A DNA stretch of 64,000 nt from Dendrophyllia cribrosa. Taxonomy: Eukaryota > Cnidaria > Anthozoa > Scleractinia > Dendrophylliidae. Position numbers and translations under genes: made by a program. Shown here piece after piece: positions 16,561-64,000 of the stretch (positions within the stretch are counted from its first letter, which is position 1; each line of letters starts with the position of its first letter). The stretch covers positions 4,070,562-4,134,561 of the forward strand of contig JAJLRJ010000001.1 of NCBI GenBank assembly GCA_024195265.1, given 5' to 3'. The notes below the pieces were generated by a model, which was not told the origin of the DNA, made no database searches, and saw nothing but the letters and a program-made list of their open reading frames with translations.

Positions 16561-17145
16561 TCACAGTTTTATAAAACTGCGACAGCTACAGGAAGATCTA
16601 ACTTCCTGGCTCACTACGTCCCACTTCTCTTTTCCATCGTCTCCGCATTCCCCTGTCTTCTTCAAAACGTCCAGAAAGAATTTCCCTTGGACACATTCAC
16701 CCTGGTTGCTCTGAAGGCAAAAATTGTCAGTGGTATCGCAGATTACTTCATTCAGATGGCGTGGGAAGTAATCTGTCGACAGCGTTGTGACAGCTGACCT
16801 CTCCGTACACAGGTAGTAGAGATTGTTTCTCGGGTCTTGCGAGCCTCGCTTTGCCACGCTTACGTTATCCGTTTGCGGATAAGAGCTGTCCTCTCTTTTC
16901 CTTCGGAATAGCTCTTTGATACTGTTATTCGCTGTAGGGGCAGCATACTTTTGATTGGTTAGGCTTGGAAATTTATCGGCATCCTGTTTTGTGATGGCTT
17001 GGTATCGCTTGTTGTAGCCGCCAAACGTTTCGAGTTTTGTTTCCAGTTCTCTTCTTGTCCTGGGTTGACACGAGATGTAGAGTGCATCTAAGCAACTAAG
17101 AAAGGCGGCAAGGACGATCGCCACTGAAATGATTTGTTTAAGCAT
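16561..17145 (-). CDS. Secreted cysteine-rich paralog A
   Basis: 194 aa from MLKQIISVAI. A hydrophobic signal peptide (about 1-21) is followed by the upstream module (CQP...LETFGGYNKRYQAITKQDADKFPSL, about 26-62). Two basic sites, RRKR (81-84) and KR (99-100), precede the C-terminal module with FPRHLNEVIC (127-136), FC (143), GEC (151), GEC (167) and RSSCSC (183-188). It lacks the CxxC pair that the other copies have just before the FPR motif, and ends CSC rather than CCxC, so it is the most divergent member. An acceptor (TTCTATAG) lies 3 nt upstream of the Met, so the transcript should have an upstream exon; the best candidate is at about 21717. Family function is unknown to me. A secreted, proteolytically matured ligand is inferred. 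Confidence 0.8.
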   Translation of the reverse strand: MLKQIISVAIVLAAFLSCLDALYISCQPRTRRELETKLETFGGYNKRYQAITKQDADKFPSLTNQKYAAPTANNSIKELFRRKREDSSYPQTDNVSVAKRGSQDPRNNLYYLCTERSAVTTLSTDYFPRHLNEVICDTTDNFCLQSNQGECVQGKFFLDVLKKTGECGDDGKEKWDVVSQEVRSSCSCRSFIKL

Positions 17146-17689
17146 ATCCTATAGAATAGAAAAAGTTGATAGTTTATTAACATAACTAAAACATTTTTAA
17201 AAAATGCCAATCAGTTATTCTGATGCCGTAGTTAACCTCATCACCAATAGCTTAAGGTGGCTCCGTTGTTATTTTGGGCCGCGCACTCGTCTATGACAAA
17301 CTTTGGGTCACAACTTTTCGGTGTCTAAAGCGATGCTTATAAAACTTTAAGAAAACTAACAGCTATTATTTATCAATGATATGATAGAATTCGATATTAC
17401 TGGGCAAAGTATTTTTTTGTGATAATCGGGCTTAAATGAACCCTATGAAAATGATCCAGCAGTTTGGTGTCAAACTCCTTCCACATGAATTTCAAGATAC
17501 TGCAATACTTTTGCATCGATTTTTTTTTTGCTTAGAAGGGCTTTCAATTGGATAAATAGTTGTTGGGCTTATAAGCTGCATCTAAGCAATTATCAGAGTT
17601 TTTATTCTAAGAATTCGCACCTTTATCACGAACGACCCCTTACAAAGGTGCGAATTCTTAGAATACATTCCACGTGCTCATTTCGTATT

Positions 17690-18166
17690 CTACCCTTTTA
17701 TATCTTATGCAATCTTGGCTGGGGCAGCGCTTACAAATCCAAAAAGTACAAACAAAACAAAACAAAACAAAGTTGTAAGATTAATCTTTTTTGCAGCATC
17801 CTATGGGAAAAATACTGAAAGCGCTCTCCCCCTACTAAACTTATTATAAATATTCTAACAGTAAATAACGTTTATTGCCTACATGCCCTAAACTTCACTT
17901 ACCTACGGCATAAAGGATTATTGCCAAATATATTTAATGACTTCTTTCAATACGCAAGCAATGTGCACAATTACAGTACTAGATATGCAGTTAAACAAAA
18001 TCTGTATAAATCGCGCGTGCGAACAAATACCGGTAAACAAATGATCTCTTTCATGGCAATTGATCTTTGGAAAAATCTCCCTCATCAACTTATTAAGGAA
18101 CTAAAGGTATTTTCCTTCTCCAAAAAGTTAAAGCATTATTTACTGTCACAACAATGTATGAAATAA
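17690..18166 (+). pseudogene. LINE reverse transcriptase 3' remnant, frameshifted
   Basis: Conceptual translation in shifting frames gives features common at the C-terminus of non-LTR retrotransposon polyproteins: CNLGWGS, then QNKVVRLI-like, then LPNIFNDFF...VHNYSTR and the WKNLPHQLIKELKVFSFSKK stretch with LKHYLLS at the end (stop at 18166). Stop codons and at least one frameshift interrupt it near 17840. Clade not determined. Confidence 0.65.
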
Positions 18167-18219
18167 CTGAGTTGCTTATATTTTGTTTCAAACGTCTTCC
18201 TATTTTAATAGATTATTGA

Positions 18220-18485
18220 GTTAACTCAGAAACCCATAAGTGGGTTGAAACGTGTAACGCGCATTCACAGCTTCCGAATATTCATTTTTTGCGTAGTACC
18301 ATATTTGGAAACCCCTCGGGATTGGAAGCAAGTTGTTCTAGCAAATTGATTGGTTAATATTTTTATCTTGATTTTCCAAATATGGCTGTAACAACTTCTT
18401 AGCAAATCGAATAATCGGAAGCTTGTTTTGAAGCGTGCAAGAGACAGTTGCACGTTTCAACCCACTTATGGGTTTCTGGTTAACT
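18220..18485. mobile_element. Foldback element nested in the TTAA composite
   Basis: The left arm GTTAACTCAGAAACCCATAA GTGGGTTGAAACGTG is mirrored by CACGTTTCAACCCACTTATG GGTTTCTGGTTAAC at the right. About 35-bp arms, 266 bp in total, with an inner imperfect pair (CCATATTTGGAAA, TTTCCAAATATGG-like). No coding capacity. Confidence 0.75.
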
Positions 18486-19369
18486 TCAATACTCTTTCTT
18501 TGATTTCCTTTAGCCTTTATTCCTGTATTAAAATTAAATGGCTGGAGGCTAACTTGAAAACTCTTGGGTTAATTTAGCCTCCAGTCTCTAATGTTAATTT
18601 ATATATTTTATAAGTATTATTATCTGTAGTTTTTCTTGTTTAGCGTGTTCTTGTAAAATGTATATATCTATTGTTATGAGTAAAATAAAATTGTATTGTA
18701 TATCCATAAACAAAACTCTGAAAACTGTTTGTCAGCTAAAGCATCCCTTTAGAGCCGGAAAAGTAATGTCCCAAAGTTTGTCATAGACGAGTGCGCCCGA
18801 AATAATGGAGCCACCTTAACTTGGGTAAAGTTGTCACACGGTTGGGCCTGATACAACGAGGAACCAACCGACACGAAGAGAGTCATGGTCCATGGCAACC
18901 GTGGCAGAGCCCACCAGTGACTCTGGCATCGCCCGCGCGACTATCTAGAGAGGGATTGTTAGCGGTCTAGGAAATGAGAAGCGAAGAACTTTAAGAAAGT
19001 CTAATACCCTCATTCAGTTGTCAAACGTTCTGACAGTGACAGGAGGGAAGGACATGGAGCAAGGATCCGATCTAGTACAACGAACCGCAAGGACCTGCAG
19101 CAATGACGAGCAATTAAACAATGGTATTGAATCAGTTAATATTGGTGGGAGTTGTTGGGCGGAAGAGCCAGAACAATGGACTGTCTACAGGCACTTATTT
19201 TTCCCCTCCCCTCGATCGTCTCGCGCTTCGCGCTCGTGTCGCGATTGGCGCGAAATGCTTCGCTCGCCCCGCTTGGCTCATAATTATAAAGCGTGGGCCT
19301 GTCATGCAGGCTAAACTTCGCATGTCAAGAACACTTCATAAGAAACGTTTTGTTCTAATACTAGTTGCG

Positions 19370-23609: not shown

Positions 23610-23850
23610 AACCACTCGTTGTGACCATTAGCTTACGCATGCGCACAACCGTAACACCTGGTAGTGGCAGCTTAGCCATGGACAGCTGTAAACAGCGGGG
23701 TCGATGATTTTATCTGAGACCCTTATGTCTGGCTATGCCATGCTGATGAGTCCTAACCAGGACGAAACAGCTGTCCATGGCTGCCACTACAAGGGTAATA
23801 TGGTTGTGCGCATGCGTAAGTTAATGGCCATACGTAGTATGATGAAGTGT
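23610..23850. mobile_element. Foldback element carrying a hammerhead ribozyme
   Basis: The left arm (CGCATGCGCACAACCGTAAC, GTAGTGGCAG, GCCATGGACAGCTGT) is mirrored at the right (ACAGCTGTCCATGG, CTGCCACTAC, GGTTGTGCGCATGCG). The centre holds a complete hammerhead motif. Small hammerhead-bearing retroelements (retrozymes, Penelope-like relatives) are known in metazoans; that this is a remnant of one is inference. Confidence 0.65.
23726..23791 (+). ncRNA. Type I hammerhead ribozyme with minimal stem III
   Basis: All core elements are present in order. CTGATGA is at 23743-23749. Stem II GTCC/GGAC (23750-23753, 23760-23763) has a TAACCA loop. GAAAC is at 23764-23768, with a 2-bp stem III (AC/GT) closing an AGCT loop. 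The predicted cleavage site is GTC|C after 23775. Stem I pairs GCCATG (23737-23742) with CATGGC (23776-23781); beyond a small TAT/T internal loop it continues GGC/GCC and TGT/ACA. This is the short-stem-III type I form reported from metazoan retroelements. Confidence 0.85.
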
Positions 23851-24320: not shown

Positions 24321-24926
24321 TCAGGGGAACAGTGCACATTCACAGCACACTCGTATTTCCTGCGAGTAAACCACCGTAGACGAACCTACCATCATTAAGA
24401 AATCCTGCACCACCTTAGAATTCTGGCACTCTCCTACCATGCCTGGCACTGAACAGCTGGTCTCATCTCCACATAACACTTCGTTGATGTAGCGGGGGAT
24501 CTTGTCTGGACCAAGATCTGTTACTGCCGGGCAAACTTCACAGAGCCTCTCCATCCCTCCAATGGTAGATTCACAGGGGCCTGAAGGCGTTGTAACGGGA
24601 AAGGAGGAATCCCTCTGAAATCTATTCCTGGTTGTCTTGACGAGTTTATCACTTTGTAGATCGAGGGACGCGCTATACAATGTATCGTTGTAGGTTTTCA
24701 TTTGCCTCATCCTCGTGCGGAAAGACACCAGATTGGGAAATTCATCTGCTTCCTCGCTAGTGAACGCCATGTAAGCAGAGTTAAAGTATCCCAGTGGCCC
24801 TGGTTTCTTGCCCATACTCTTGAGGTAATCCGTTAACTCCTCGCCGTCTCGTGGAACGTTCATCAAAGACATGACTCCACAGAAAACAGAGAAAGCAGTG
24901 GCACACAACAGTATTCGAACGGCCAT
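24321..24926 (-). CDS. Secreted cysteine-rich paralog B
   Basis: 201 aa. Signal peptide MAVRILLCATAFSVFCG (about 1-20). Upstream module LKSMGK...GYFNSAYMAFTSEEADEFPNL (35-66). A furin-like RFQR site (102-105) is followed by SSFPVTT. The C-terminal module has Cys at 118, 129, 132, 152, 158, 167, 194, 195 and 197, with LCEVCPAVTDLG, KIPRYINEVLC (142-152), GEC and IRVCCEC. The Met directly follows an acceptor (TTTTTAATAG|ATG), so the 5' untranslated region lies in an upstream exon, perhaps at about 27878. An AATAAA-type signal occurs on the minus strand near 24171-24176. Closest in layout to paralog C (shared SSFPVTT and CPAVTDLGP). Function not known; a matured secreted ligand is the inference. 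Confidence 0.85.
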   Translation of the reverse strand: MAVRILLCATAFSVFCGVMSLMNVPRDGEELTDYLKSMGKKPGPLGYFNSAYMAFTSEEADEFPNLVSFRTRMRQMKTYNDTLYSASLDLQSDKLVKTTRNRFQRDSSFPVTTPSGPCESTIGGMERLCEVCPAVTDLGPDKIPRYINEVLCGDETSCSVPGMVGECQNSKVVQDFLMMVGSSTVVYSQEIRVCCECALFP

Positions 24927-26721: not shown

Positions 26722-26753
<32 letters not shown>

Positions 26754-32457: not shown

Positions 32458-32604
32458 TATAATGTCCACACAAGAGACTGAACGTGTAGAAACTCAAAAT
32501 GTTTAATGGTCGATCACTGATAACAACGTTTACAAAGCATGTGCTCTCCTCGATCTCGAGTGCGCATGTCCTACAATAACATGGCCGCTGACCTAAACAT
32601 TACA
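32458..32604 (-). repeat. 3' LTR of the Gypsy element
   Basis: 147 bp, identical to the other LTR except for G/A in the ATGGCCGCTG / ATGACCGCTG segment. On the coding strand it starts TGTAATGTTTAGG and ends GTGGACATTATA. Confidence 0.93.
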
Positions 32605-32708
32605 TTTCTCCCCCCGTTGAGGAAAACAAAACAGTTAGCTAGAAATAACAAAGAAAAAAAACTTAGTCGACTCAAAGATGCTTAGAGAGGTTTTCTTTGA
32701 CCTATGTC

Positions 32709-33230
32709 CTAATGACTGTCCATAACAAAGTCTTTAAACCGCACTGGTCTTTTGATTTGCCTTCCACTCCGGGAAAATCGGATAGGCGTTGTGGTGTCTG
32801 GATCATCATTTACGGAGGTCGATGGGGCATTGCTAGACTCTTCCGGGTTTGCTTGATCACTCTCGGGTTGAGGGTCGGGGGGTTGGGCAGATTCGCACAT
32901 TTCCAGGCCGTCAAAGTCTGTTGGATCAGGTGGCTCTGGTTGAGGTGCTTGTTGGGGTTGCGCTTGTGCCTGGTCCGGTTGGCTTCCAAGCTTCTTGAAA
33001 TGTGAGCTGTTCCTGGTGACTTCTCTGAGGTCTGTATTTCTGCTTGCGGTAACCATGGAACCCTTGATGTCACGGATGGTGTATGGTACTGGTTCAAAAG
33101 GTGGACTAGCCTTGTTCAGTTTTCTCTGCTTCACTAGGGCACTATCACCGATGTGGAGGTCATGGGGTTTCGTGTTCCGTTTGGTGTCGGCGTAAGCTTT
33201 CATCCGCGCTTTAAAGTGCTGATGCTTGGG
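32709..33230 (-). pseudogene. Integrase C-terminal region displaced by a frameshift
   Basis: It encodes the basic, proline-bearing tail usual after the Gypsy integrase core (MKAYADTKRN, GDSALVKQRK, PPFEPVPYTI, HFKKLG) in a frame that overlaps the end of gag-pol by about 20 bp and has no ATG at the overlap. A single indel between about 33211 and 33260 explains this best. Programmed frameshifting is possible but unusual at this point. Confidence 0.75.
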
Positions 33231-36200
33231 CAAAATTTGGCAATTTCGTTCGCACAGTTCTGTTCATGGATAGCTCATATGGACTTCTTCGGGTACTTGG
33301 GTGAGGCGTAGCTCGGTAGTTGCTCAAGAAGCTGTAAAGCTCTCTTCTCCAGTCCTTGCCTTCAGAATGGGCGGTTTTTGCAACTTTACCGATGTTCTTC
33401 ATGAAGCTCTCCGCATGGCCATTTGCTTCTGGCCACAGCGGTGTGATCTTTTGGTGAGTGAACCCTTTCTCCTCTGCGAAGGAACGGAAGGCTTGGCCAT
33501 GAAATGGGGGCCCATTGTCGGTTTTTAGAACTTCTGGTATGCCGTGAGTGGCGAAGATTCGCTCCATGGCAGGGAGGACTTCTTTCGCTGCTGTGCTGTT
33601 GATGATTTCTACTTCCGGGTACTTTGAGTAAGCGTCAATGACAACAAGTACTGTCTCGCCGGTAGGAAATGGGCCACAAAAGTCCGCTGAGGCTTGTACC
33701 CATGGTCCCTTTGGCGTAGGGGACATTTGGAGGGGCTCGCGCTGAGTCGTGTTAACACAGGCTTGGCAGGGTATGCAGTTGGCGATACGCTGCTCGACTT
33801 TCTTGTCAATTCCCGGAAACCACACCTTTGAACGGAGCAGTTGTTTGGTTTTCACGACTCCAAGATGACCCTCGTGACATATGTTGATCACTTGCTCCTG
33901 CAGGCTCTTTGGGATTAGTATCTGCTGACTTCGGAGGATTACTCGTTCTGTGTAGGTGAGCTCGTGAAAGACTTGGGCATACTTGGCCAGGTCAGGGTCT
34001 TTTTTACAAGCGCGATGATCCCCGGCTTGAATGAGTGGAGCAAGCTTGCGGAGCTCTGGGTCGTTTCCTGTGGCATTCTGGATTTGGGTGAGTGTGATAG
34101 CTTTCGGCACAGTGTTCACTATGATGTTGTGTACCACTTGAGACCGGGTCTCACTGGTCTTAGCATCGCCTTCAGTAAGGGGTAGCATGTGTCTTGACAG
34201 GTAATCTGCGGCGTTCTTGTTTCCTGGGCGGTACACTAGCTTGTAGTCAAACTGTTGGAGATACAAGAACCAGCGTTCAATTCTCATAGGGGGTCTGCTG
34301 TGGGGATTGTTGAAAAGGGGCAACAATGGCTGGTGATCGGTTTCAATGGTAAATACGCTGCCGATCAAGTACATGTAACAACGTTCGCAGGCCCATCTGA
34401 TGGCAAGAGCCTCGCGTTCGGTCTGTGAGTAGCGCTGTTCCGTTTCCGTCAGGCTTCTGCTAGCACATTCGATTGGTTTCCACCCCTGGGGTTTCTTCTG
34501 CAAAAGGATTAATCCTAGGCCATTGGGACTTGCGTCGACTTGCAGTTTGGTTTCCGCGCCTACTTCATAATATCCAAGTACTGAATCACTGGATAATGTT
34601 CCCTTCAGCTTGTCGAAAGCTCTTTGTTCTGTTGGAGACCATTTCCATGGAGTGCCTTGGTGGGTGAGCTTGCGCAGGGGCGTGGTCAATTCTGAGAAGT
34701 TAGGGATAAATCGTGAAGAATATTGAGCCATACCCAACAGGGACCTCACTTCCGACACATTCTTTGGGGGGCCCATTTTGTGAAGAGCCTCTACTTTGCT
34801 GGGCGATGGCCTGATTCCGTCTTGGGAAAATACGAAGCCGAAGAATTCGATCTGGGGCAGGCGAAACTTGCACTTTTTGAGGTTCAACGTGAGCCCACAT
34901 TCTCTGAATCGCTGTAAGAGGTTTCTGAGTGCGTCGTCATGCTCCGTAACGTCACTTCCAAACACAATGAAGTCATCTCGGATGTGAAGGACGCCAGTTA
35001 AGCCCTCAATGGTGTCGTCCATTGCCTTATCGAAGATGTCTTGTGCAGAGATGGTACCATAATTCAACCTAGTGTATCGCATTCTAGAGGTTGTTCCATA
35101 GAAGGTGGTGAGGTGTCTGCTAGGTTCGTCTAGTTCGAGTTGGTGATAACCCTCATTCATATCAAGGACGCTGAAAACTGTAGCTCCTTCCAACCTGAAC
35201 TTTATGTCTTCTACGGTTAGGGCCTCTGTTACCGGGCGGAGGATGGCGGTGTTGGGTACTCTCATGTCAGAGCAGAACCTGATGGCCTCTGGGTTGTGTG
35301 GTTTGGGTGCTACCACTGGGTTAGTGCACCAAGTAGTGGGTTGGTTGTCCGGCACAGTTTCGATTACTCCTATATCCTTTAGTCGCTGTTCCTCCTCCGT
35401 AGCTTTCTTGGCTAGGTTGTAGGGGATTTTTCTCGGTTTGTGCGCAATAGGGGTTACGTTTCCATCGACGATCAGCTTTGCCTTAATGTTCTTGTGTTTT
35501 CCCAAACCAGAGAAAACGTCCTTGAATTCAGAGGTCAGCTGTGACACGGTATTGTCCTGTTGTTCACTGTCCTTAACCGGAGGTTCGACTTCTGCTTGGG
35601 TGGAGTAGGCTAATTGTAATAGACCTAGTTTCACACTAGTGTCCAGGCTTAGGAGAGGCCGGGACTTTGTGGTTCCCTTAACAACAAGAAAAGGGGCCAT
35701 TGTTTTTTTCCCTGTGCTGACACTCTCTACTTCTGCGTCGAAACAGCCAAGAAGAGGTACTGGTTTCTCCTGGGCAAAGGCATAGAGCTTAGTGTCGGTG
35801 GATTGCAGTGATACTTTGTGCTTGAGTGAGTTTTGGAGTTTCTGGAATTTTTCCTCATCCAGGATGTTAGCTGATGAACCTGAGTCTGCTTCCATTCTTC
35901 CCTTGACACCATTGATTAAAACATGAACCGTGGGGGTGTTGCCTGGGCGTGGACTGCCGGGCTGTAACTGAAAAGCAAAATCAGAGTCTGAAGAGCTGTC
36001 TTGTTCTGGCTGGACCGAATTTGCCGCTGAGTTGCCTGAGGTTTGTTTATCTTTGCCTTTTTGTTTCCCCTTGCACATTTTTGCAAAATGACCTTTCTTG
36101 GAGCAGGCTGAGCATGTCTTCCCTGATGCTGGGCACTTGGATCGTGGTCCTTCGTGGTTAAATCCGCAATATTGGCAAATATTCCCGTTTTCCTCGTTAG

Positions 36201-36951
36201 GCTTTGGTGGAGGTTTCTTTTTGTTCCGTCTTCCCTTGGGATTTCGGGGTCTCCGCTCGTGTACTCTGTTTACTGGAACTGTTTCAGAGGGTAATGCTTT
36301 TTCCATGTCCTGAGCCTGTCTGTCGATATCCTCTGTGTTTGCTGCGTGTTCCAATAGCTGTAGAAGAGTGTACCTTTTAACCATGGCTTCTCTACGTAGT
36401 TTCTTGTCTCGCATGGTCTGCAAAATTTTGCTGCGAATTGCATCATCAGGGTCGGCGAAGCCACATTTAGAAACCTGAAGTCGCAAACGAACGTGATATT
36501 GAGCGATTGATTCTCCTTCCCTCTGATACATCTTGTCCAATTTACTGCGGGCACAGTCCGGGTTAACCATAGGAATGAAATGGTTGTCGAGCTTGGCGAC
36601 AATCTTGTCGAATTCGTTTTGTTCGGCCGAGGTTGGCGATGCGAGTGGAACGTTCTCGAGGGATTCAGTCAGTTCGCGAATCTGTTCGCCGCCGTAAATT
36701 TGAAGTGCATCAACGCGGTCTTGCGTGTTTGAAATTCTAAAGTACCTGAAACGAGTGAGTAGTTCGTTTTTCCATTTTTTCCAGCAGCGACCAGTTTCGT
36801 CGGGGTCTGTGCCGGCGGTGAACGCGTGCATTCTGATGTCCTTCGGTCCGTGTAACGAAGGTTGAGCTGCTTGTGTCGCCGGTCCTGCTGACGAAATTTG
36901 CGGCGCTGGAACCTGAGCTGTCGATGCAGTGTTATCCTCATGATCTGACAT
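33211..36951 (-). CDS. Gag-Pol polyprotein of the Gypsy element
   Basis: 1246 aa from the first ATG (MSDHEDNTAS), one frame for gag and pol. The gag region has two cysteine clusters, CQYCGFNHEG and CSACSKKGHFAKMC, the second a CCHC knuckle near residue 285. A retropepsin-like DSGSSANI follows near 355. The RT has FSVLDMNEGYHQL and an unusual IRDD in place of the usual YxDD. RNase H shows VDASPNGLG and ETDHQPL. Integrase has the HHCC zinc region (HEGHLG...CIPCQAC) and the D, D-35-E set (ADFCGPF, TDNGPPF, PEANGHAES). The frame ends shortly after RATPHPSTRRSPYEL, earlier than expected, because the integrase C-terminus lies in another frame. Confidence 0.92.
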   Translation of the reverse strand: MSDHEDNTASTAQVPAPQISSAGPATQAAQPSLHGPKDIRMHAFTAGTDPDETGRCWKKWKNELLTRFRYFRISNTQDRVDALQIYGGEQIRELTESLENVPLASPTSAEQNEFDKIVAKLDNHFIPMVNPDCARSKLDKMYQREGESIAQYHVRLRLQVSKCGFADPDDAIRSKILQTMRDKKLRREAMVKRYTLLQLLEHAANTEDIDRQAQDMEKALPSETVPVNRVHERRPRNPKGRRNKKKPPPKPNEENGNICQYCGFNHEGPRSKCPASGKTCSACSKKGHFAKMCKGKQKGKDKQTSGNSAANSVQPEQDSSSDSDFAFQLQPGSPRPGNTPTVHVLINGVKGRMEADSGSSANILDEEKFQKLQNSLKHKVSLQSTDTKLYAFAQEKPVPLLGCFDAEVESVSTGKKTMAPFLVVKGTTKSRPLLSLDTSVKLGLLQLAYSTQAEVEPPVKDSEQQDNTVSQLTSEFKDVFSGLGKHKNIKAKLIVDGNVTPIAHKPRKIPYNLAKKATEEEQRLKDIGVIETVPDNQPTTWCTNPVVAPKPHNPEAIRFCSDMRVPNTAILRPVTEALTVEDIKFRLEGATVFSVLDMNEGYHQLELDEPSRHLTTFYGTTSRMRYTRLNYGTISAQDIFDKAMDDTIEGLTGVLHIRDDFIVFGSDVTEHDDALRNLLQRFRECGLTLNLKKCKFRLPQIEFFGFVFSQDGIRPSPSKVEALHKMGPPKNVSEVRSLLGMAQYSSRFIPNFSELTTPLRKLTHQGTPWKWSPTEQRAFDKLKGTLSSDSVLGYYEVGAETKLQVDASPNGLGLILLQKKPQGWKPIECASRSLTETEQRYSQTEREALAIRWACERCYMYLIGSVFTIETDHQPLLPLFNNPHSRPPMRIERWFLYLQQFDYKLVYRPGNKNAADYLSRHMLPLTEGDAKTSETRSQVVHNIIVNTVPKAITLTQIQNATGNDPELRKLAPLIQAGDHRACKKDPDLAKYAQVFHELTYTERVILRSQQILIPKSLQEQVINICHEGHLGVVKTKQLLRSKVWFPGIDKKVEQRIANCIPCQACVNTTQREPLQMSPTPKGPWVQASADFCGPFPTGETVLVVIDAYSKYPEVEIINSTAAKEVLPAMERIFATHGIPEVLKTDNGPPFHGQAFRSFAEEKGFTHQKITPLWPEANGHAESFMKNIGKVAKTAHSEGKDWRRELYSFLSNYRATPHPSTRRSPYELSMNRTVRTKLPNFAQASAL

Positions 36952-36966
36952 ATCCTCGTCGCCAGA

Positions 36967-37113
36967 TATAATGTCCACACAAGAGACTGAACGTGTAGAA
37001 ACTCAAAATGTTTAATGGTCGATCACTGATAACAACGTTTACAAAGCATGTGCTCTCCTCGATCTCGAGTGCGCATGTCCTACAATAACATGACCGCTGA
37101 CCTAAACATTACA
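36967..37113 (-). repeat. 5' LTR of the Gypsy element
   Basis: 147 bp, bearing the promoter side of the element. It ends two bases before the primer-binding site. The open frame continues into its end, so a GTG in the LTR is in frame with gag-pol. Confidence 0.93.
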
Positions 37114-38271: not shown

Positions 38272-41017
38272 TTAGAACAGAAAGCATTCGCAGCAACTTC
38301 TGATAAGCTGTGTGTAACTTTCAAGCATTTCTTTCCCAGCCGACGAATCACACGTGGATACCAAGAGCTGCTGGTTCAGGCCCGTGGTCTTACAAAATCC
38401 TTCAGCCTGTGGCCCACATATCGCACTTTCGTTCATGCAGATGACCTCGTTGATGTAGCGAGGGAACCTCCCTGGGCCGAGGTCTGTGACGGCCGGGCAC
38501 GCACTGCAGTATGGAAATTTTCCCTGATTGACTGTACAGGCTCCCGTGACTGTGGTGACAGGAAAACTCGAGGAACTCTGTTGTGTTGCTGACAGGTTCA
38601 AGTGTCGCATCGTGATAAGGTTATTAAAGTTGTTCACTGCGTCTGCCCAGGTAAAGGCCATGTAATTTTTGTTGAAGAAACCCAGAGGCCCTCCGCCATC
38701 TGTCTTTAGCTTCGTCAAGGCATCTTGGACAGTGGCATTAATGCAGGAGCTTCCCGCCCCGTCTTCCTGCGTCGTGGCAGGCATCTGTGTCGTGAGCACA
38801 ATAAGTGAAAGAAGCAGGAGCTGAAAATTCAATTGAGCTCAGAGTGAGAATTGATTTAGTTATACGTATTTCACCCCTAGCAGCAGGGTAAAGCATCCTT
38901 TATTATTTAATTAGTTTGGTTCATTTTGTAAACTGTATTTAAATAGAGGCATCGCTCATCACAAGCTAGCTTTTCTTCATTTGGTCATACAGGAGGATTT
39001 TAGATTACCCACCTTACGGGTACAGCACAACAGAAAAGTACTGCTTAATAGCTTTCATTTGAGTGGTCACACTGCAGGATTTCATCCACAGACTCAAAAG
39101 TTAGAGCCACCTTGAACAGCATAATAAACAGTACCACAGGAAAGTACTGCTAAAGAGCTTTCATTTGAATGGTCACACTGCAGGATTTAATCCACAGATT
39201 CAAAGGTTAGAGCCACCTTGTACAGCATAATAAATTGAGTAGTACAGGCAAGTATCATGCTCAATAGCTTTCATTTGAATCAGTCGCGCTTTAGGAAGTT
39301 CAGCCACAGACTCAAAATGTTACAACAAACGTGTACAGCATAATAAACAGTACCACAGGAAAGTACTGCTCAGTACATTTGAATGTTCAAAATGTGAATT
39401 TCTGTCACAGAATCAAAGATTGGAACTAACTCAGTGTATAGCACAGTAAACAGTACCACATGAACTTCTCGTTAGCTTCCATTGAAAATTTAATTTTGTT
39501 GAAACAATTTTCCTCTTCTCCAATAAAATAAATTTAAATCCGCTTAATTCATTTAATACCAGTATTTGCTTAAAATAGGTATCTGATCTATCGATTACAA
39601 TTGCCTTTGCCTTAAAAATGTTTCTTGTACATATTTTCTAAAGGCAGAATTAAAAGGTTTGGTCACGTTTCCACCAAAACCTCTCCATTTTAAAACCATG
39701 AATTTTGAGGTGTCATTAAATGCGGAAGGACCAATACTTTGTTGATAGTAGAGATTTTGGATTTGATCACCTCGTTGCGAGTTGCAAACAAACCCAAGCC
39801 CGATGATTGTTAGTCGTTGGGATTAAATCTATTCATGCATGAGTTAACGGAATAAAATTTGATGAAGATAGTTTTAAATTTTCTTCTTTCATCATGACTT
39901 ATGACTCTCGACGTGGTATTGTGTTCCGACCCCTGATATATTATAAAGAACACGGCACTGATTGAATCAGGAAAACACATGGGGAGGAGCAAATATCCCC
40001 AACAATACTATACTTGTACTTACACCAAACTGTCTAACAAAGAAACTCAAGCTATTATCCAACCTTCCGAAACACAAATATCGTATGACGGCTTAAAGCC
40101 TTTTCGCGTATTATTTGTATTCTATACTCAGTGATGTTTGATTGCGCAGCCTGTTTTCTTTTCCGACCGAACTACTTCGGGTTACAAATCTCACAAAAGA
40201 AAAACTATGGAAATAGTATGTGTGAGCGAGCGAGCGAGCGTGTGCATGGTATCGATCAGTAACAAAGAGAAGTGACATGTTCTAAGCAAGATTTAGGGTG
40301 ACCAATATCTGTCTTGAATTCTTTAGCTTTGAATATGCTTTACGTACAAGAAATTTGCTCAATCTAAATGGCAGCTATGACTACATTTATCTGCTTTAAT
40401 ATTTTTTATCTTAAGCACTGTCAATATATTGGTTAAATTCACTTGAAAATCTCTCATAGAACAAACATGGCGGTTACCCACCTTTGAGTAGTTTTCTTTG
40501 GCATGTAATGCATCTAAAAACGTTCAAAGCACATGGCATTGTAATGATTTAAAATTTCCAAAGGGCGCTAACTCAAAAAATTCTTAGTTTCGAAAACGTT
40601 TTCCGCCACGCTGCGTGAAAGTACTGCTCAACAGCTTCCATTTGAATGATCACGCTTTAAACTTTCATCCACGGAATTTGGAATCTCCTTTTACGACATA
40701 TCAAAAAGCGCCACAGGAAAGTAGTGACTCTGGTAGGACAAAGATTAAGTGTGTTTCTCGTCTGAAAATCTAACCGCAGCTATCTCAACATTGTTTCTGT
40801 CTTACTTCCGTATTTGTTAAAGTATTTTCTTTGTATGATCAAAACCCAATTTAACTTCAATTAAAACAATTAGGAACATGCCTCATTTTCTGCTAAACTA
40901 ACTTTATTATAGACATCGACTAAACGTAACAATTTTACTCCCCAATACAAAACAATAGATGTTGAAACAAAAGGCGCAAATGTAACTAACCTTAATAAGA
41001 AGTGAGTAAGAATCCAT
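38272..41017 (-). CDS. Secreted cysteine-rich paralog C
   Basis: The main exon 38820-38272 starts after acceptor TTTTCAG with no in-frame ATG. A mini-exon at 41017-40991 (MDSYSLLIK, donor AAG|GTTAGT) fits in phase and gives 191 aa with a convincing signal peptide (MDSYSLLIKLLLLSLIVLTT). The main exon is secure, the mini-exon tentative. Upstream module: LKTDGG...GFFNKNYMAFTWADAVNNFNNL (47-78). C-terminal module Cys at 104, 114, 117, 137, 144, 152, 166, 185, 186 and 188, with YCSACPAVTDLGPG, RFPRYINEVIC (127-137), GFC and IRSCCEC. There is no RxxR site in the linker, unlike paralogs A and B. Potential N-glycosylation sites are NATV, NLSA and NESA. Four 106-bp repeat units lie in the 2.2-kb intron. 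Confidence 0.78.
39028..39475 (+). repeat. 106-bp dispersed repeat, about four units, in the intron of paralog C
   Basis: The units share AGCTTTCATTTGAATGGTCA, AGGATTTCATCCACAG, ACTCAAAAGTTAGAGCCACC, TTGTACAGCATAATAAACAG and ACCACAGGAAAGTACTGCT. They are more diverged than the array at 47-48 kb. Confidence 0.85.
40605..40735 (+). repeat. Single degenerate copy of the 106-bp repeat
   Basis: GAAAGTACTGCTCAACAGCT, TCCATTTGAATGATCACGCT, TTTCATCCACGG and GCCACAGGAAAGTA mark the unit. Confidence 0.65.
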
Positions 41018-49026: not shown

Positions 49027-50389
49027 TTACATCATGCATTCACAGCACACTCGTATAGACTGGGTGTAGGGCAATAATTCTTCATAGCCGGTGATTGGAT
49101 TACACTGTCCTGTTTTGTACAGAAATGTCTGATGCATGACAGCATTCTGACAAATGCCTTGTACTCCAAATGAACACTGAGTTTGACCACAAATGACTTC
49201 GTTGATATAGGACGGAATTTTGTTGTGACCCAGGAATGTGACTGCAGGACATGCACTACACAGACGTTGTAAGCCACCGTCTGACGTTTTACAGTTGGCG
49301 CTTGACATGATGGTGCTTGCCTTCGTGGGAGAGCGAAGCGGAAGAGCACGGATCGAGGAGATATTTCGGGGCGTCGCGCTCACGGTTGCAACTATGCTCG
49401 GGAATTTAATTGCGTCCCTCCACGTAAACGCCATATATCGTCGATTATAACCCCCATACGAAAATCCGCTTTTGGAGCCTAGCTTGTTTAGCTTCCTTAT
49501 TAGCTGTCCTTGGCGATAAGACCTGCACCTAAATGCACGTTTCTGCCGATGAGGATTTGGCGGGAAAATCGTCCAGTCCGTTTTGTTACCGTCTGTTTCC
49601 ATGGCATCACCTTCTTCTTTCGCTGTGGGAAGACTGCTGACTGGTGTAAGCTGTAGGCAATTGATGATAGCCATGGTCGTGAAAACGAGCTGCAAAAGCA
49701 AAATAGACAGAAGAAATTATAGTAATTTAATTGATAAGTATAAATTAAATTTAACTGTACGTGTGTAATGTGCTTTTAGCATTTAAGATATGATTAGAAA
49801 AGAAAAAACATGAGCGAGTGATCGAACGAATACACGAACGAAGGAATAGTGAAATGCCATTGGATAGTCAAATATCCACGCGTGTTTGATGGAATATTTA
49901 AATTAAAGTGTTGGTAACTTTTTAGTTACCCATTTTAATGCATCAGTTAATTTCTGATCTTTAAAAACTGAATGGGGCGGGTTCATAACGTTGTTTGCCA
50001 TGCAGTTCAAATCAGTAGCTACCCAAAACGATTATTAATAAAGAAATTAATAAAGAAATAATAAAGAAATTAATAAAGAAATCAGACTGGATGCACAATC
50101 TGATCTGTTAAAATTTTAATGTGAAAGGAAACACTCGAAAATACTTTTTCATGTTTTCTACGGTCCCTGAAGTACATACCCGCTGATTACATTTTTACCG
50201 GCCGAACCCAATAGCTTGCAGCTAGGGACTAGCGGTCCCGAATTAACGTAACGTAACGTAACCGATTCATCGCCGGCGAAGAGCAAAGAAAAGAGGGCTT
50301 TTCTCTGGCTAAATTCCGAGAAACTTAACGCCGGTTCTTTAAAAAAAAACACGAAAAATTAAAGTACTTACCAGTAGTTTTACGTCCAT
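49027..50389 (-). CDS. Secreted cysteine-rich paralog D
   Basis: Coding exons 50389-50372 (MDVKLL) and 49689-49027 join in phase 0 (CTG|gtaag ... TTTTGCAG|CTC) into 226 aa. Signal peptide about 1-25. A dibasic HRQKR (53-57) precedes FRC, where the upstream module starts: LNKLG...YGGYNRRYMAFTWRDAIKFPS (73-104). C-terminal module Cys at 139, 150, 153, 173, 178, 186, 202, 221, 222 and 224, with LCSACPAVTFLG, KIPSYINEVIC (163-173), GIC and IRVCCECMM. The mini-exon has its own acceptor (TTATTGCAG), and a noncoding exon with TATA box lies at about 51052-51150, so this is the best resolved gene of the cluster. AATAAA overlaps the stop codon (TGTAATAAATG). Confidence 0.88.
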
Positions 50390-53825: not shown

Positions 53826-55357
53826 ATGCGTCCGCAGGTAAGCATTTTCTTTTATTAACTGCGTTTATGTTCAAATTTGAAAATTTACCAGTTTTAAAAT
53901 ATTACAAACCGCGCGCACTGTACAAAGATACTTTGGGGTTACATCAAGAGACTCGAAAACTACGTAAAGCGAGCTTATCAATGACAATGATAGAGATTAA
54001 GGTTGAAACATTTTTCCCAAGGAGGATCGAATTGTAGTTCATGCATCGGGGTAGAAATTTATGGATCAAGAGTGTCATCCTTGTTATGTCAGTTATCTTC
54101 ATTTTTCTCTTGGTTCGGCGGGAAGGAACTTTATTATCGCAATAAAAAACATCTCGGAACAAGTTATAAATATGTGTCGATTACCTTTTTAAGGAAATAA
54201 ACAAATTGCTAACGGGTAGACTGCATGCAGTTTGAGGGAGTAACTGAGTTATAATCATGTTCGCTTCTTAATATTAGATTCACCGATAAGTTGGGAAGAC
54301 ATGATAATTATGATGATGATGATGATGATGATAATGGTAATGATGATGATGATGATTGTCTGAATTATGAGCCGACAACAGACGTTCCCACTTTTCATTG
54401 TGTATCACAGTGAGATCAAGTATCATTATCAGAAGGAAAGCATGTAAACTCTAGAAATGTGAATTTATCGCAACCTTGTTCCTTTCGTTTTCGTAGGTAA
54501 TGCACAAAGTTTTCTTTATCGTAGTTTTGATGGGCACAAGTGACAGCCGGAACGACTTCGTGTTGCCTCAAATCGGGCATCAAACGGCTGACACGCGTGA
54601 TGTCAACAGACAACCGGAAAATTATAAACGTCATCCATGCTTTGCAGGAAATGGTACTGTACCGACTAGCAACGGTTTGATTTTGTGCCTGATTCCCACT
54701 GAAAAAGAGCTTGAAACCCAACTGAAAGAAATTGGAGGTTTAAACAGACATTACGCTGCGGTGAGCAAAGCGGAAGCTGATAAATTTGCCAATTTAATTT
54801 CACGTCCTCGACCGACCTTACCACAACAGCAAGAAACCAAGCCATTCCTCATAATATGGAGTTACCTCACGTCTGGAGTGTCACACAGAAAGAAGATTGT
54901 GTCTTACAAGTCTTACAATGTGAAGCCTGAGTCACGCAATCAGAAGACTAAGGATATGCTTAGTAGTGAAGACCTGGATAACAACATGATAAGCTCTAAG
55001 AAAACCCGCTGTATTTATTCTGGTGAACAAACGGAATATGGCATGTTTCGTTTGTGCACTGAATGCCAAAGAATCTCCAAGCTGAAATCCGACCGTTTTC
55101 CACGTTACATCAACGAAGTTGCTTGCCATAATAAAATTCCCAGTGAGGTGGGACATAGCACAGCAGGCTGTCATAGGAATCAGGGAATGTGTTTTCAGCG
55201 ATTTCTTTTCACAGATTTTTTGGTGAGAACTGAAAAGTTCGTGGAGGTCCCTTCACCGAATCCTGAGAAGTTTCCCAAAGCTTTCAAGCAAGTCTGGGAG
55301 CCATACACGCAAAAGATTCGTAGCTGCTGTGAATGCCAATTAGCATTTAATATCTAG
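53826..55357 (+). CDS. Secreted cysteine-rich paralog E (only plus-strand copy)
   Basis: Exons 53826-53837 (MRPQ|gtaagc) and 54497-55357 (TTCGTAG|GTAATG) join in phase 0 into 290 aa. The alternative start ATG at 54500 would also keep the hydrophobic stretch MHKVFFIVVLMG. Upstream module: HPCF (50-53), CLIP, LKEIGGLNRHYAAVSKAEADKFANL (80-104). A lysine-rich linker without a classic RxxR site follows. C-terminal module Cys at 176, 191, 194, 214, 229, 236, 281, 282 and 284, with LCTEC, RFPRYINEVAC (204-214), GMCFQRFLFTDFL and VWEPYTQKIRSCCEC (270-284). HPC...CL(I/V)P and WEPY tie it to paralogs F and G. AATAAA at 55373-55378, 16 nt after the stop. Confidence 0.85.
54309..54358. repeat. GAT microsatellite in the intron of paralog E
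   Basis: About 15 GAT/AAT units with two interruptions. Confidence 0.9.
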
Positions 55358-57039: not shown

Positions 57040-60000
57040 CTAAAAGTTTTGACATTGACAACAGCTCCTGATTGGCTGACCGTATGGCTCCCAAACCTGC
57101 TTGTAGACAGTGTCGTACTGTGGGTCAGGTGACGCGATTTTTTCATACCGATTGCTTCTCATCAGAAGATCTTGCGTCAGCGACCGCTGGAAGCACTGAC
57201 CGCTGTAACTGTTGCAGTAGCTAGTGGGAGGAGAGGAACTGGCACCATCTGGACCGCAGATCCGTTCATTAATGTATCGCGGGAACCTGTCCTCTGGCAA
57301 AAACCTGATCCACCAGCATTCCTCGCAGAGTTGAACGAATCCCATGGAATTGCGCTGACCTTGTTTCACGCAAGATTGAAGCCCGCTCACACTTCTTTTT
57401 CGTCGATCATTGCCTGGTTTTGCTTTATCATTTCCCATCTTGTATTCGCTTTCGTGAATGGATCGTCGACGCCTTCCTGTGACATTCAACCAATCTGGAA
57501 CCTTGGACTGGACTAGAGGATTGAAAGGATTTTCGAAATTTTCTTCGGCTTCCTCTTCGGTGGCAGCTACGTAATGTTTGTTGAAGCCTCCGGATTCCTT
57601 AAGATTCTTCAGTAGGTTGGCAATCGAAGGTACCAAACAGAGGATTTTCTCACCCTCTGCCGTAGTCACGGTCTTGTTCACCCTGGTGTTGAAACACGGA
57701 TGAACCTTAGGCGCAAGCTCGTCTGTGGGGGGTGCAACAGGTGTAGGCTCATTCTCATGCTCTTCATCTGAGTATTCTTCATTTTTTTCTGGGTTCACCT
57801 CATTCGTTAAAAGCTGAAGAGCTTTTTGACGCGAAACAATGCTTCTTTTGTGGGGTAGTGAGTAAACTCCAGTGATAATCAGGATGACAGCTGTGAGACA
57901 AGTAGGAGAAACTAAAACCTGCAAAATACAAAAACCAATAAAAAATTAATGATAAATAACAGAAAGTGACGGCTAAAAGTGAATCATAGTCCGTTTGGAA
58001 AATATAGCATTTCTGTTCAGTTTAGATCAGAGAGTACTCGCTTGCTACCATTCTGGCCCGGGTTCGAAGTCTACGCCATATATGGGTTGGAATTGGTGAT
58101 GGTTCACCCCGTACCCCGGCATATTCCTGCTACGAGGCTTCTAGTTTCCCTCCCTCCGGCAAAAACAGCAAACGACATTCTAAATTCCAATTCGATCTGG
58201 AAGCACGTCATATTTGAACAAGTTTCAGCGAGCACTTGCGTGGTAATTGCGAAAAAGAAATTACATTTTTTCCACAGTTACATTTTTAGGGCTCAATTGG
58301 AACACAAGTACGCTTAGCGCACCCGGATTGTTTTTAATGTTGCCACAAAGCTACACAAAATACTGATTGCACCTGTATTCTCCACGGGCCCCTCTCTTAA
58401 GGAGGAGGCAGGAGCCGTCAGGAACTGGGAATGAATGCAAAATGGGAAGGGCAGAGCTTGGGAACGAGCGCGAAGCGCGAGAGTGGGCTTATGGGATTCG
58501 CTTTCCGGCCCAGCCTTCCTGTTTTTCTCCGCACCCCACTCTGATCAATTATTGACTTCTCATGTTTCTTCTCAGAAAGCGGGCGAATGAGGACGATGCA
58601 GATATTTCACTCCACATAAATCATTTATCTGTTAATTCAGTTTTAAAACTAGTAACAAATGAAATGAAAGGCTGATCGTACAGTAAAAGAATATATTTTT
58701 TTACCCGATTAATTTCGAACAGCACGGCCGTTCTTCATCAGGGTATAACCGTACTAAAAGAAAAACGTTACAAATTTAAATTTAAAACAAGCGAAAGATA
58801 TGAAATTACATATGACATGATGAAACGATGAAAAGGACGCTAAAATTTACATGAATATTAAGTTTCGTGGCGTCTACTGTTAACCCTTTATGTAATTTCA
58901 TATCTTCCGCTTGTTTTTAATTTAAATTTGTAACGTTTTTCTTTTAGTACGGTTATACCCTGATGAAGAACGGCCGTGCTGTTCGAAATTAATCGGTTAA
59001 AAAAATATATTCCTTTATACTGTACATTTAGCCTTTCATTTCATTTGTTTATAATTTTTTTCGCTGATCAGATCCTTCCCAGGGATCCAGTCAGTTTCGA
59101 ATTTGTCGAGTGGTCCTTTCATTTACACAATTTATATTTAAAATTAGTATTTGTCCTATTATACGTTTGTTTGAATCTAGAGTTTGTTTTCTTTATTACG
59201 TTGGACAAATTAATTTTACGCTCAGTGGGTCGTGTTTTAAAAATACTGAATTTAAATATCATAGCAGCCATTAAATAATTTGTCATACTAAATGTACGGA
59301 AATGTGAAAGATAATTCTGACCACCATTTTCCCGATATTTTACCTTGAAATGGAATTTACTTTTCACACAAGTCGATTGACACTATTTGTTTTTTAGCAA
59401 AATTGCAGGGTTAACTCGTATGCTTAAGGTTTAAGTCGAATGACTTCCACAAATGCGTGTAGATTATTTTTCGTGTTTAATTTAGTTTTCATAGCTAATT
59501 CAGGTGTTGTCACTGGTTTAAAATCACCAAGTTCGCATTGTACAGTAAAAAAACAGTGAAGAAAATTCTTTTTCCTGCCATTTTAAAAACAATGACTGCG
59601 TGTAATCAAGAGTATACTGTATCGTTTAACCAAATCACCCAGAGTAAAACCTGGCTCTTACCAGAGGCACCTAACGAATCGTTTCGCAGAAATGAAATTC
59701 TGTTCGGAAATGCTTCAATCGCCTAAAAAAAATATAGTCATTCACTAGATTAAAAACTAGAGTTTTCTTTAATAAAATGTCGCCCCAAACGTTCATAAAA
59801 TCGGAAATTAAATTTAACGCCTTTAGTTTTTGAGGGATAATTCTTTTTTTCCTGCATGAATATTCCTCGTTGTGTGCCCGTGTCTAACGTGCGTCTTAAG
59901 TCAGTGGATGAAATCCACGTCGTGTTAAACTGATTCAAATGAAAGCTCTTCAGCATTACCTTTCTATGGTTTTGTTTGATTTCCAATATTTTAAGAATGA

Positions 60001-61317: not shown

Positions 61318-62096
61318 AGTCGATTTAATTTAGACGGTACGATATCGCTTGCGACACGCTTACGCCATGACTTACGACCATTTACACGCGGTCGAGATTT
61401 TCATTTTCCTGACATCACACTGAATCGCATACGATGTTGCCAAAATGGCTGACACGCAAATCGTGTTGGCTATAGCTGTGGCTGTTTTATGCAAAAGAAG
61501 AAGAAAACGGCGAAGGGTACGAGAAGTTAGAGAGGAGAAATGGCTAAAGCGAAGATGGGAAAAAGGGGGTTTCCGACAGTTGATGAAGGAACTACGTTTA
61601 CAGGACGAATTAAACAATCGATGAGATTGATGGCATTTTGTCGTGGATCGGTCCGTAAAATAGTCTTTGTGTTTACAATTGAACAACACCTCCTCCTCAC
61701 TCCACAATGATATGAGGCGTTCTGTCTCTTTTTGAGAAAAAGATACCGTGGGTTTACCCTTGGGTTTATCGGATTTACAGGCATTTTGAACTTGTACCAA
61801 AACAACTTCTCAGAACTTCCTCCGACTTTGACGCAACGCCACTTCCACCCTCCTCCTAATCAGTAAATTTTTGTCACTAAAACTTCACGAAATTAACGTC
61901 ATCTTTTTATTGTTCTCGGCTGCGATTGTCGTAGAGTTTTAAAACATGTTTTAAAAGCCTACAACATTTTTCGTGTTGTGTGCGTCTTTGGTAAGGACGT
62001 TGTAGGTTGATTTACACGATGCGATTCGTGTTGTAGTCATGGCGTAAGCATGTCGCATGCGATAATCGTAGGCAAAATCGTACTGTCTAAATCGCC
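61318..62096. mobile_element. Degraded PIF/Harbinger-type element
   Basis: The left end (TTTAGACGGTACGATATCGC, CGACACGCTTACGCCATGAC) matches the inverted right end (GTCATGGCGTAAGCATGTCG, ATCGTACTGTCTAAATC) with an indel. About 780 bp. It carries a 59-codon frame resembling the transposase N-terminus, and is located about 720 bp downstream of paralog G. Confidence 0.65.
61445..61624 (+). pseudogene. Harbinger transposase N-terminal remnant (59 codons)
   Basis: The frame starts MADTQIVLAIAV and contains the arginine block KRRRKRRR, then WLKRRWEKGGFRQLMKELRL. In HARBI1-like transposases a basic stretch followed by a (R)W...RR...GA(Y/F)..L..EL+ pattern occupies the N-terminus just before the catalytic domain. 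The stop after NNR truncates it before any DDE residue, so it cannot be an active transposase. Family assignment is from recall of the pattern. Confidence 0.55.
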
Positions 62097-62814
62097 CTTT
62101 AGATATCATCCAACGACAATTGGTGTAAAATGTACTGTTGCCAATGTTCGGCAAGTACCATCATTTGCATTAAAAAAAACATTTTTTGCCATACACTGAC
62201 ATTTTAATTAAAAGGTATAAAAATCAAACGATTTGCAATACTTTTTGGAAAAAAAGAAAACAATTCCGATTTTGAAAGACTATTTCAAGAGATTCACCTG
62301 TCATCATCATTTACAATTGATAAACTTTATTGTTATGTACACTGTACATAAGCTGACTGAATTTATAAAGCGATAATTTAGAGCATTCAGAATAGACAAA
62401 AAAGAAAAAATAAGAGTTTACAAACAAGCAGAGCAAAGTACAAATTATAATACAGATCAAAGAACAAGAAAAATATTTATTATTTATTTTATTCCAAATT
62501 CACAAAACGGAAGTATGGAGCGAAAATTCGCGACTTAGCAATCTTTAACAGAAGATGTCAATTCTTTATCAGGTTAATTCCTTTATTACCCCCCATTTCT
62601 AGCTCAGATCACTAGTTACAATAGTCCGAAATTTATGATCACGAGAAACTACTGTTAAATATAGGTCATTATTATGTTATATATGTTTTACCCAATGCAT
62701 AGGATACCGCAGAATATGAAAAACAGTGTGTTTGCTTTCTCTGGTTGAAATTTAACTATAGATGGAATATTTAGTTCACAGAGTTGTTTTGAATATAGAG
62801 GTAAACTGGTATGT
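62097..62814. other. 3' flank of paralog G
   Basis: AT-rich, no gene. A minus-strand AATAAA near 62328-62333 and A/T-rich patches near 62460-62490 could include its polyadenylation site. Confidence 0.4.
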
Positions 62815-64000
62815 TTACAAAAATGATGCTATTGGACTTGACGGCAGCAGCTCGCATGCGCAATGGCGCTTTATCGTTTGAGTGTATGGTTCCCATTTTT
62901 CTGTGTAAACGTCGTGCCCAGCCTCTGCGCTGAGTGCGGAATTTTTCTCCCAGTCCTCTTCAAACTGTAGCAAATCAAGAGTAAATGTCTTCTGAACACA
63001 AAACCCATCGATACCTGGGAGATAGTTCGACTTTGCTTTAGGATCACACACTAGCTCGTTAATGAATTCCGGAAATCTTCTTGGCTGTGATGGCTGCCGT
63101 GTAATGGCCGTGCAAATGGGACACATTCTCAAATGGCCGGATTCCGTGTGAGATTTTGACGCATAACACTGACCGATCAATGTTTCACCAGGATCGATAT
63201 GCATGCCCCGCTTTGTTCGAATGCTGCCAGACTCGGAACGATGCAAAACAAATGACCGGCTAAGGTTGAGTTTCTCTCCGGTATCCAGATCTGTAAAATT
63301 ATTCAAAGCTTCTTGTAAGGTCGTCGCTAGATACTGGTGATTAAAAGTTCCAAGACAGTTCATCCTCTGCTGCAGATCGGTTTTCCGCCATCGCCGACAC
63401 TCGATATTTTTCACTTTGTATTCCATCGCCGATGAGTTAGCTTCAACGTTGCAAGGGTGGAACTTGCCTTCGACAACCACCTCTGACCCGTTTTGAGTTG
63501 TGTTTGTCGTTGGGCGGATCACACTTGATGTACTTGTAGTAGTACTGCTTCTTTTTCTTCGTGTTCTGATTGTAGGGGTCACTCGACGTCTTTTTCTTTG
63601 GCTTACCCGGCGACGAGACCTATACCTAACTCTCCTGTTTCTTCGGCTGCTTCTCTTGACAACCGGATGTTTGTTTCTTGGAGCTTGATTCACTGACCTT
63701 TTGACTAACGATCTTTGTTTTTGATTCATCTTTTGGTTCTCTGTTATTCTATCCCTTGAATCATATTTTTTATTTGTTGGCATTTGACTGTCAAAAGGAA
63801 CAAACATTGAAGCTTGCCCTTGCGTTAAATTGATAGGGTTAGTGTTGATGGCGAACATTTTGAAAGGTTTCACTTTGGTTCTTTTAATTTTTGCTTCATT
63901 TTTAAGGCTACTTTTTGCGAAGTACTGTTTGTTGTTGATTACATGGAACTCTCCGTGGATTGGGACCTTGTAATGAGGCTCCATGGATGTGCCGACATTG
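62815..64000 (-). CDS. Secreted cysteine-rich paralog G, partial at the right edge
   Basis: 389 aa from the Met at 63984, but the frame stays open to the window edge and the first residues (MEPHYKVPIH) are not a signal peptide, so the exon and gene continue to the right. A strongly basic stretch (about 95-146: KRSSRRNRR, RSRRRVSQRKRRR, RRKR) is unique in the cluster. Upstream module: FHPC (175-178), IEC (194-196), MNCLGTFNHQYLATTLQEALNNFTDL (208-233). RTKR (256-259) is a furin-type site. C-terminal module Cys at 273, 288, 291, 313, 329, 375 and 377, with MCPIC, RFPEFINELVC (303-313), GFC, FTLDLLQ and KWEPYTQTIKRHCAC (363-377). It has HCAC where the others have CCxC. Closest to paralogs E and F. 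Confidence 0.83.
   Translation of the reverse strand, partial: NVGTSMEPHYKVPIHGEFHVINNKQYFAKSSLKNEAKIKRTKVKPFKMFAINTNPINLTQGQASMFVPFDSQMPTNKKYDSRDRITENQKMNQKQRSLVKRSVNQAPRNKHPVVKRSSRRNRRVRYRSRRRVSQRKRRRVTPTIRTRRKRSSTTTSTSSVIRPTTNTTQNGSEVVVEGKFHPCNVEANSSAMEYKVKNIECRRWRKTDLQQRMNCLGTFNHQYLATTLQEALNNFTDLDTGEKLNLSRSFVLHRSESGSIRTKRGMHIDPGETLIGQCYASKSHTESGHLRMCPICTAITRQPSQPRRFPEFINELVCDPKAKSNYLPGIDGFCVQKTFTLDLLQFEEDWEKNSALSAEAGHDVYTEKWEPYTQTIKRHCACELLPSSPIASFL

Follow-up and report, generated by a model that had tools for sequence, protein, structure and literature searches.

Background

Noggin (Pfam PF05806; structures 1m4u and 7ag0), which binds bone morphogenetic proteins (BMPs) through a clip segment, and PTTH and Trunk, ligands of the receptor tyrosine kinase Torso (structure 5aoq), appear to be the closest described counterparts of seven proteins encoded by a gene cluster of the stony coral Dendrophyllia cribrosa. 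The genes, here called A to G, lie in a stretch of 64,000 bases (contig JAJLRJ010000001.1, positions 4,070,562 to 4,134,561; hereafter the window). Passages of PMC9071555 describe Noggin-like proteins of planarians and arthropods as having a Noggin knot without a conserved clip, PTTH and Trunk as having no clip, and related genes as adjoining Noggin in many animals. In the same passages, clip-less ApNL2 and Trunk activate the mitogen-activated protein kinase (MAPK) pathway, while ApNL1 without the clip still inhibits BMP; for this reason, action through a receptor kinase and action on BMP are both plausible for the coral proteins. According to a part of PMC6660194, torso occurs in cnidarians and trunk in Stylophora pistillata and Orbicella faveolata. 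These trunk genes are possibly the same as genes A to G. A further possible counterpart is USOMP-8 (B3EWZ2), an uncharacterized protein listed in the skeletal matrix of Acropora millepora, with 214 residues and a signal peptide at 1-24 (in the relevant section of PMC4043741). It first appears in corallimorphs according to a passage of PMC6824150, and its expression was above zero in one of the four corals tabulated in a section of PMC9570262.

As in Noggin, the coral proteins consist of an N-terminal motif, a linker and a knot with the order C, PRY[IV], C, C, C, CxC, and their N-terminal GGFNxxYMA recalls the GGHYDPGFMA of Noggin. Unlike Noggin, they have no detectable clip, they carry additional cysteines (CxxC and CCxC), several classes possess a furin-type site, and their genes are clustered. 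With PTTH and Trunk they share the absence of the clip, and PTTH is their best sequence match in PDB across the knot, with DLG and PRxI among the matched residues. Our preferred explanation, to which we assign a probability of roughly 0.6, is that A to G are old coral paralogues belonging to the Noggin-like/Trunk/PTTH branch, which would be secreted, partly processed by furin and most likely ligands of a Torso-like kinase.

Results and discussion

Seven genes share a cysteine module and an N-terminal motif

The first-pass annotation of the window had proposed a cluster of seven genes with a common cysteine module, and this was borne out in two ways. In a six-frame scan of the window, the pattern [FI]P.[YFH][IL]NE..C was present at seven places and nowhere else, once in each of seven long open reading frames (ORFs). 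Independently, a family profile was derived from 37 database relatives alone, with the window left out, and run on the window's 2151 stop-to-stop ORFs (minimum length 20 residues); it detected the seven with E-values from 2.3e-87 (B) to 2.4e-15 (G), the eighth-best ORF reaching 0.22. With the same profile, reversed ORFs gave a best E-value of 1.7 and shuffled ORFs one of 0.22, so that a chance motif could be ruled out. No further members or pseudogene copies were detected in the window at E <0.2.

The signature proposed for the module (C, G-x-C and a terminal C(C)xC) held overall, except that its second C, present in six members, is absent from G; the terminal CCxC was found in five members and is replaced by CxC in A and G. 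The extra cysteines of the knot, CxxC at its start in six of the seven and CCxC at its end in five, may pair with each other. Gene A has neither of these two elements, which are common to B-F. Great divergence outside the signature had also been claimed, which is correct only in part: all seven have another conserved stretch, G-x-[FYL]-N-x-x-Y-x-A, in their N-terminal parts, 49-98 residues ahead of the knot. Pairwise identities are 23-39% over aligned stretches.

A, B and E each begin with an ATG-started hydrophobic leader directly following a pyrimidine-rich AG, a candidate splice acceptor. The first-pass annotation had claimed a signal peptide in every member with a resolved 5' end; judging from these leaders, the proteins A to G are probably secreted. 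In C, D and F a hydrophobic stretch is present with no fitting ATG in the ORF. A candidate acceptor is situated 27 bases inside the ORF in D and F, F having another at 55, and methionine-started versions occur among the relatives (P0072 and P0076). F at least probably has a first exon further upstream, as perhaps do C and D; none was located for these three genes, and G is truncated by the end of the window.

The knot sequence resembles those of PTTH and Noggin

The family had initially been regarded as apparently undescribed, a view which does not fit the database matches. B exceeded the gathering score of Pfam Noggin (27.3 bits as module, and 26.0 bits, against 24.1), a relative from Oculina patagonica bears a database name (see below), and a search of PDB with a 44-member profile (E <=10) returned three matches, namely PTTH (E 0.002), Noggin (0.035) and myosin (0.54), of which the first two cover the module while the last falls in the N-terminal part. 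The C module remained below the Pfam cut-off with 14.5 bits, and the modules of A, D, E, F and G gave no Noggin match at E <=1. When full-length members were compared with Pfam, Noggin was matched by 15 of 44 at E <=0.1 and IL17 by one (E 0.015). The former view was partly fair for two groups: Pfam Noggin was matched at E <=1 by none of 19 G-class and none of 20 E/F-class members, no relevant Pfam family was found for either group, and no PDB chain was matched by profiles of entire proteins from the E/F and the G class. Taken alone, these classes are invisible to Pfam.

A knot profile of 79 rows, judged against 2000 shuffles with cysteines fixed in place, scored PTTH at 24.5 and Noggin at 20.4 bits; no shuffle reached either value, nor did any in 5000. 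IL-17A obtained 3.7 bits (66/2000 shuffles) and NGF 3.2 bits (204/2000), and as parent families both are rejected on sequence, though the structures are close. The profile of the B/C/D class scored PTTH at 18.8 and Noggin at 18.6 bits (0/2000 each), IL-17A at 7.4 (5/2000) and NGF at 5.1 (32/2000). That of the E/F class reached 15.5 bits with PTTH (0/2000) and 4.1 with Noggin (15/2000), and the joint profile of A with E-G gave 12.1 bits with PTTH (6/2000) and 5.5 with Noggin (17/2000). No signal was obtained with the G-class profile (Noggin 1.2 bits, 64/2000; PTTH 1.4 bits, 346/2000). These scores point to a clip-less knot sequence of the Noggin/PTTH type, the B/C/D class and, for PTTH, the E/F class carrying the result. 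We regard placement of A to G in the Noggin-like/Trunk/PTTH family as very probable.

Spaetzle, NGF and IL17, named in the first-pass annotation as families to compare, did not turn out to be better candidates. IL-17A and NGF fit much worse by sequence (see above), no window module matched IL17 (PF06083) at E <=1 or NGF in Pfam, and Spaetzle, which was compared through Pfam only, did not appear in the Pfam scans. The members could instead be IL-17-like cytokines, that is, have a knot of the IL-17 family and an immune role. Models were available for B and G: VIA placed Noggin first for B, tied with IL-17 (the tie was not used alone to decide), and clearly first for G (7.1 against 4.8 for IL-17), while Foldseek ranked Noggin first for B and IL-17F first for G. 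Considering the VIA result for G together with the low knot-profile score (3.7 bits, where Noggin and PTTH obtain 20-24) and the single Pfam match, against 15 for Noggin, an IL-17 identity is very improbable. Least probable of all is a fast-evolving defence family that is undescribed and has no tie to any named family. Such a family would explain why A and E form long branches in the tree described below, and why sequence searches with the E/F or the G class by itself gave no relevant match in Pfam or PDB; yet a single profile unites all seven members and reaches Noggin and PTTH, and the classes are old and conserved. The Pfam Noggin matches, the PDB matches to PTTH and Noggin and the knot-profile scores largely refute it.

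Clip, proteolytic sites and probable mode of action

The clips of human Noggin and aphid ApNL1 (described in PMC9071555) were each aligned, with shuffles, to the region before the N-terminal motif of the seven members, giving 14 tests in which none of the seven showed convincing similarity to the BMP-binding clip; for C, D, F and G, whose starts are not resolved, the region covers incomplete upstream sequence. B came nearest, being equalled by 12/500 shuffles with the ApNL1 clip and by 32/500 with the human one. The two reference clips scored 38 against each other, and the best member 24. Because no convincing clip was found, with the reservation that first exons are missing, A to G look more like Noggin-like proteins and Trunk than like canonical Noggin.

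In the linker, sites of the form R-x-[KR]-R are present in A, F and G and R-x-x-R in B, and C, D and E have none. In the 147 of 157 database relatives that were parsed, furin-type sites were found in 46/71 proteins of the B class, 24/26 of the F class, 18/44 of the G class, 0/4 of the D class, 0/1 of the C class and 1/1 of the E class. Cleavage of Trunk is reportedly essential, to go by the title of Henstridge 2014.

On this basis, a protein can be envisaged in which the N-terminal element with its motif resembling that of Noggin is followed by the linker and by a Noggin/PTTH-type knot with extra cysteines. In some classes, proprotein cleavage at the strong furin-type site in the linker, as in A, F and G, would release or activate the knot, which might act extracellularly as a dimer. 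By analogy to Trunk and PTTH, it would bind a Torso-like receptor tyrosine kinase, BMP antagonism being the next most likely activity. Given the family placement, a receptor-kinase ligand is the leading option at slightly under an even chance; a BMP antagonist comes second and is rather unlikely, and both activities or another one come third. We lean towards the first because of the missing clip, the processing and PTTH being the top sequence match. The classes may differ in activity.

Several points weigh against this preference. B and C appear nearer to Noggin than to PTTH when single sequences are compared (19.8 vs 9.7 bits and 12.9 vs 7.8 bits, respectively), the G class alone has no PTTH or Noggin signal by sequence, and Foldseek places IL-17F first for the G model. 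The proteins might then be Noggins without a clip whose knot alone captures BMPs, the different classes tuning BMP signalling in different tissues. Besides the scores of B and C, the first rank of Noggin in VIA for both models and the BMP inhibition by ApNL1 without its clip speak for this alternative, which we nevertheless consider unlikely. PTTH is the closer of the two, though weakly, for A, D, E, F and G (NGF outranks Noggin for F, and IL-17A for G), and a convincing clip is missing from all seven. Vertebrate Noggin is not known to be activated by furin, which we count against BMP antagonism.

The classes are old and apparently linked in other corals

With B, F and a 24-row family alignment as queries, the database searches returned 74, 30 and 119 proteins, respectively, 157 different ones in all. 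The seven with a named organism are all from stony corals (four from Oculina patagonica and one each from Porites evermanni, Acropora cervicornis and Desmophyllum pertusum). None of the 119 matches to the family alignment was named as a Noggin or Trunk of another phylum. In a tree of 79 rows constructed by a quick method, a relative from outside the window grouped with each of B, C, D, F and G, with support of 96-100 in the Shimodaira-Hasegawa-like approximate likelihood ratio test (SH-aLRT). A and E were placed on long branches and no close orthologue of A was found; A has an intact ORF, yet its terminal branch is the longest in the tree. Another relative, P0153 (264 residues), lies on a long branch of its own and is perhaps an eighth class not present in the window.

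Since five classes have orthologues in other corals, a recent, species-specific tandem duplication giving rise to all seven genes can be ruled out. The fast evolution suggested in the first-pass annotation agrees with the low identity between paralogues; against it stand the age of the classes and the good conservation of some, above all G, where 18 relatives are 58-92% identical to the window's G and many positions are invariant. The G protein also carries an Arg-rich tract with many RRR/KR clusters ahead of the N-terminal motif (about 63480-63999), which by eye is present in many G-class relatives too. This tract could possibly serve in matrix or heparin binding, or provide several cleavage sites.

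Three sets of relatives list a longest contig of the same size within each set: 33,804 bases for P0105 (D), P0075 (F) and P0109 (G), 4,724,444 bases for P0013 (B), P0080 (F) and P0115 (G), and 1,823,789 bases for P0042 (B), P0108 (C) and P0123 (G). From the equal sizes, we infer one shared contig per set. More direct evidence comes from Oculina patagonica, in which ACROYT_G004376 (G-like), 004377 and 004378 (F-like) bear consecutive locus numbers, and a B-class protein lists a contig of the same size as theirs; ACROYT_G004377 has a G-like N-terminal part and is annotated as a protein without the knot. Orthologues of B, C, D, F and G are thus apparently linked elsewhere too, in an old cluster. 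This points to an old family of Noggin-like/Trunk-like ligands in corals, whose genes are clustered and whose classes are conserved, and offers a testable identity for coral genes left unnamed or called 'hypothetical' or 'skeletal organic matrix protein'.

Possible identity with a skeletal matrix protein

The Oculina B-class protein P0019 bears the database name 'putative skeletal organic matrix protein 8'. Its likeness to USOMP-8 is one of name and size, the length of the latter fitting the B class (median 211 residues, n=77) and C. The original skeletal proteome is said to be that of Ramos-Silva 2013. The B (or C) class could accordingly be USOMP-8 itself, a protein released into the space where calcification occurs and incorporated into the skeleton, in which it would have a structural or mineral-modifying role and not a signalling one. 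The listing of B3EWZ2 in the Acropora millepora matrix and its first appearance in corallimorphs (see Background) would suit this explanation, which we hold to be improbable. The name of P0019 looks like an annotation transfer, and no E-, F- or G-class match is so named. In comparison with the published size, isoelectric point and Ser content of USOMP-8, neither B nor C was picked out by isoelectric point, Ser content or sequons. Furin-type sites are kept in many F- and G-class relatives, as expected of ligands, and occlusion in the skeleton is no proof of a structural role.

A doubtful but consequential variant takes USOMP-8 for a Noggin without a clip and the entire cluster for a coral set of Noggin-class regulators, at least one class of which was recruited for calcification. 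As in vertebrate bone formation, a relative of Noggin would then modulate a BMP- or Torso-type signal at the surface on which calcification takes place. Should the B or C class be USOMP-8, a skeletal protein so far uncharacterised would be a candidate regulator of growth factors, and one could test directly whether corals and vertebrates employ related extracellular regulators at the skeleton. Literature searches yielded no published link between the USOMP-8 protein and Noggin among the matches listed, and the word Noggin is absent from the main texts of PMC4043741, PMC6824150 and PMC9570262, whose passages on USOMP-8 describe it as uncharacterized or name no function for it. The terms 'skeletal organic matrix' and Noggin both occur in PMC4320547, where the passage concerned does no more than name Noggin as a BMP inhibitor, and in PMC12874333, which is on bone biomaterials according to its abstract.

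Positions of the genes and surroundings of the cluster

Positions of all features are collected in Table 1. The start originally given for E (53826) lies 674 bases before its ATG.

Table 1. Members of the cluster and neighbouring features (positions in the window)
Feature	Extent	Strand	Length	Knot module	Signature motif (first base)	N-terminal motif	Linker site	Remarks
Gene A	ORF 17148-16561, coding 16561..17145	-	194 aa	16564-16809	16767	16996-17022	RRKR 16894-16905
Gene B	ORF 24321..24926	-	201 aa	24324-24542	24500	24765-24791	RFQR 24612-24623	Pfam Noggin above cut-off
Gene C	ORF 38272..38838	-	188 aa	38275-38508	38466	38656-38682	no R-x-x-R	orthologue P0108
Gene D	ORF 49027..49716	-	229 codons	49030-49260	49218	49429-49455		candidate acceptor ~49690; orthologues P0105, P0072
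Gene E	ORF 54497-55357, coding 54500..55357	+	285 aa	55055-55354	55097	54734-54760		sole member on + strand
Gene F	ORF 57040..57945	-		57043-57327	57285	57565-57591	furin-type RRKR 57394-57405	candidate acceptor ~57919
Gene G	62815..63999	-		62818-63123	63075	63325-63351	RTKR 63208-63219	partial, open at window edge; Arg-rich N-terminal part
TCERG1-like gene exons	818-7041	-						FF and WW domains
Ras-superfamily gene	12578-15871	-						at least 2 exons; Pfam Ras
Type I hammerhead ribozyme	23737-23781	+						45.7 bits (gathering 34)
LTR retroelement	32458-37113	-						between B and C

The long terminal repeat (LTR) retroelement between B and C is Ty3/gypsy-like by its domains (gag, reverse transcriptase, RNase H and integrase). 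Its ends are 147-base direct repeats which are 99% alike, indicating a recent insertion into the cluster. At gathering score, Rfam matched the window only with the hammerhead ribozyme, which lies about 540 bases beyond the stop codon of gene B and on the opposite strand. The Ras-superfamily gene, Rab-like by eye, adjoins gene A, and in one of the TCERG1-like exons Pfam WW_TCERG1 was found above cut-off.

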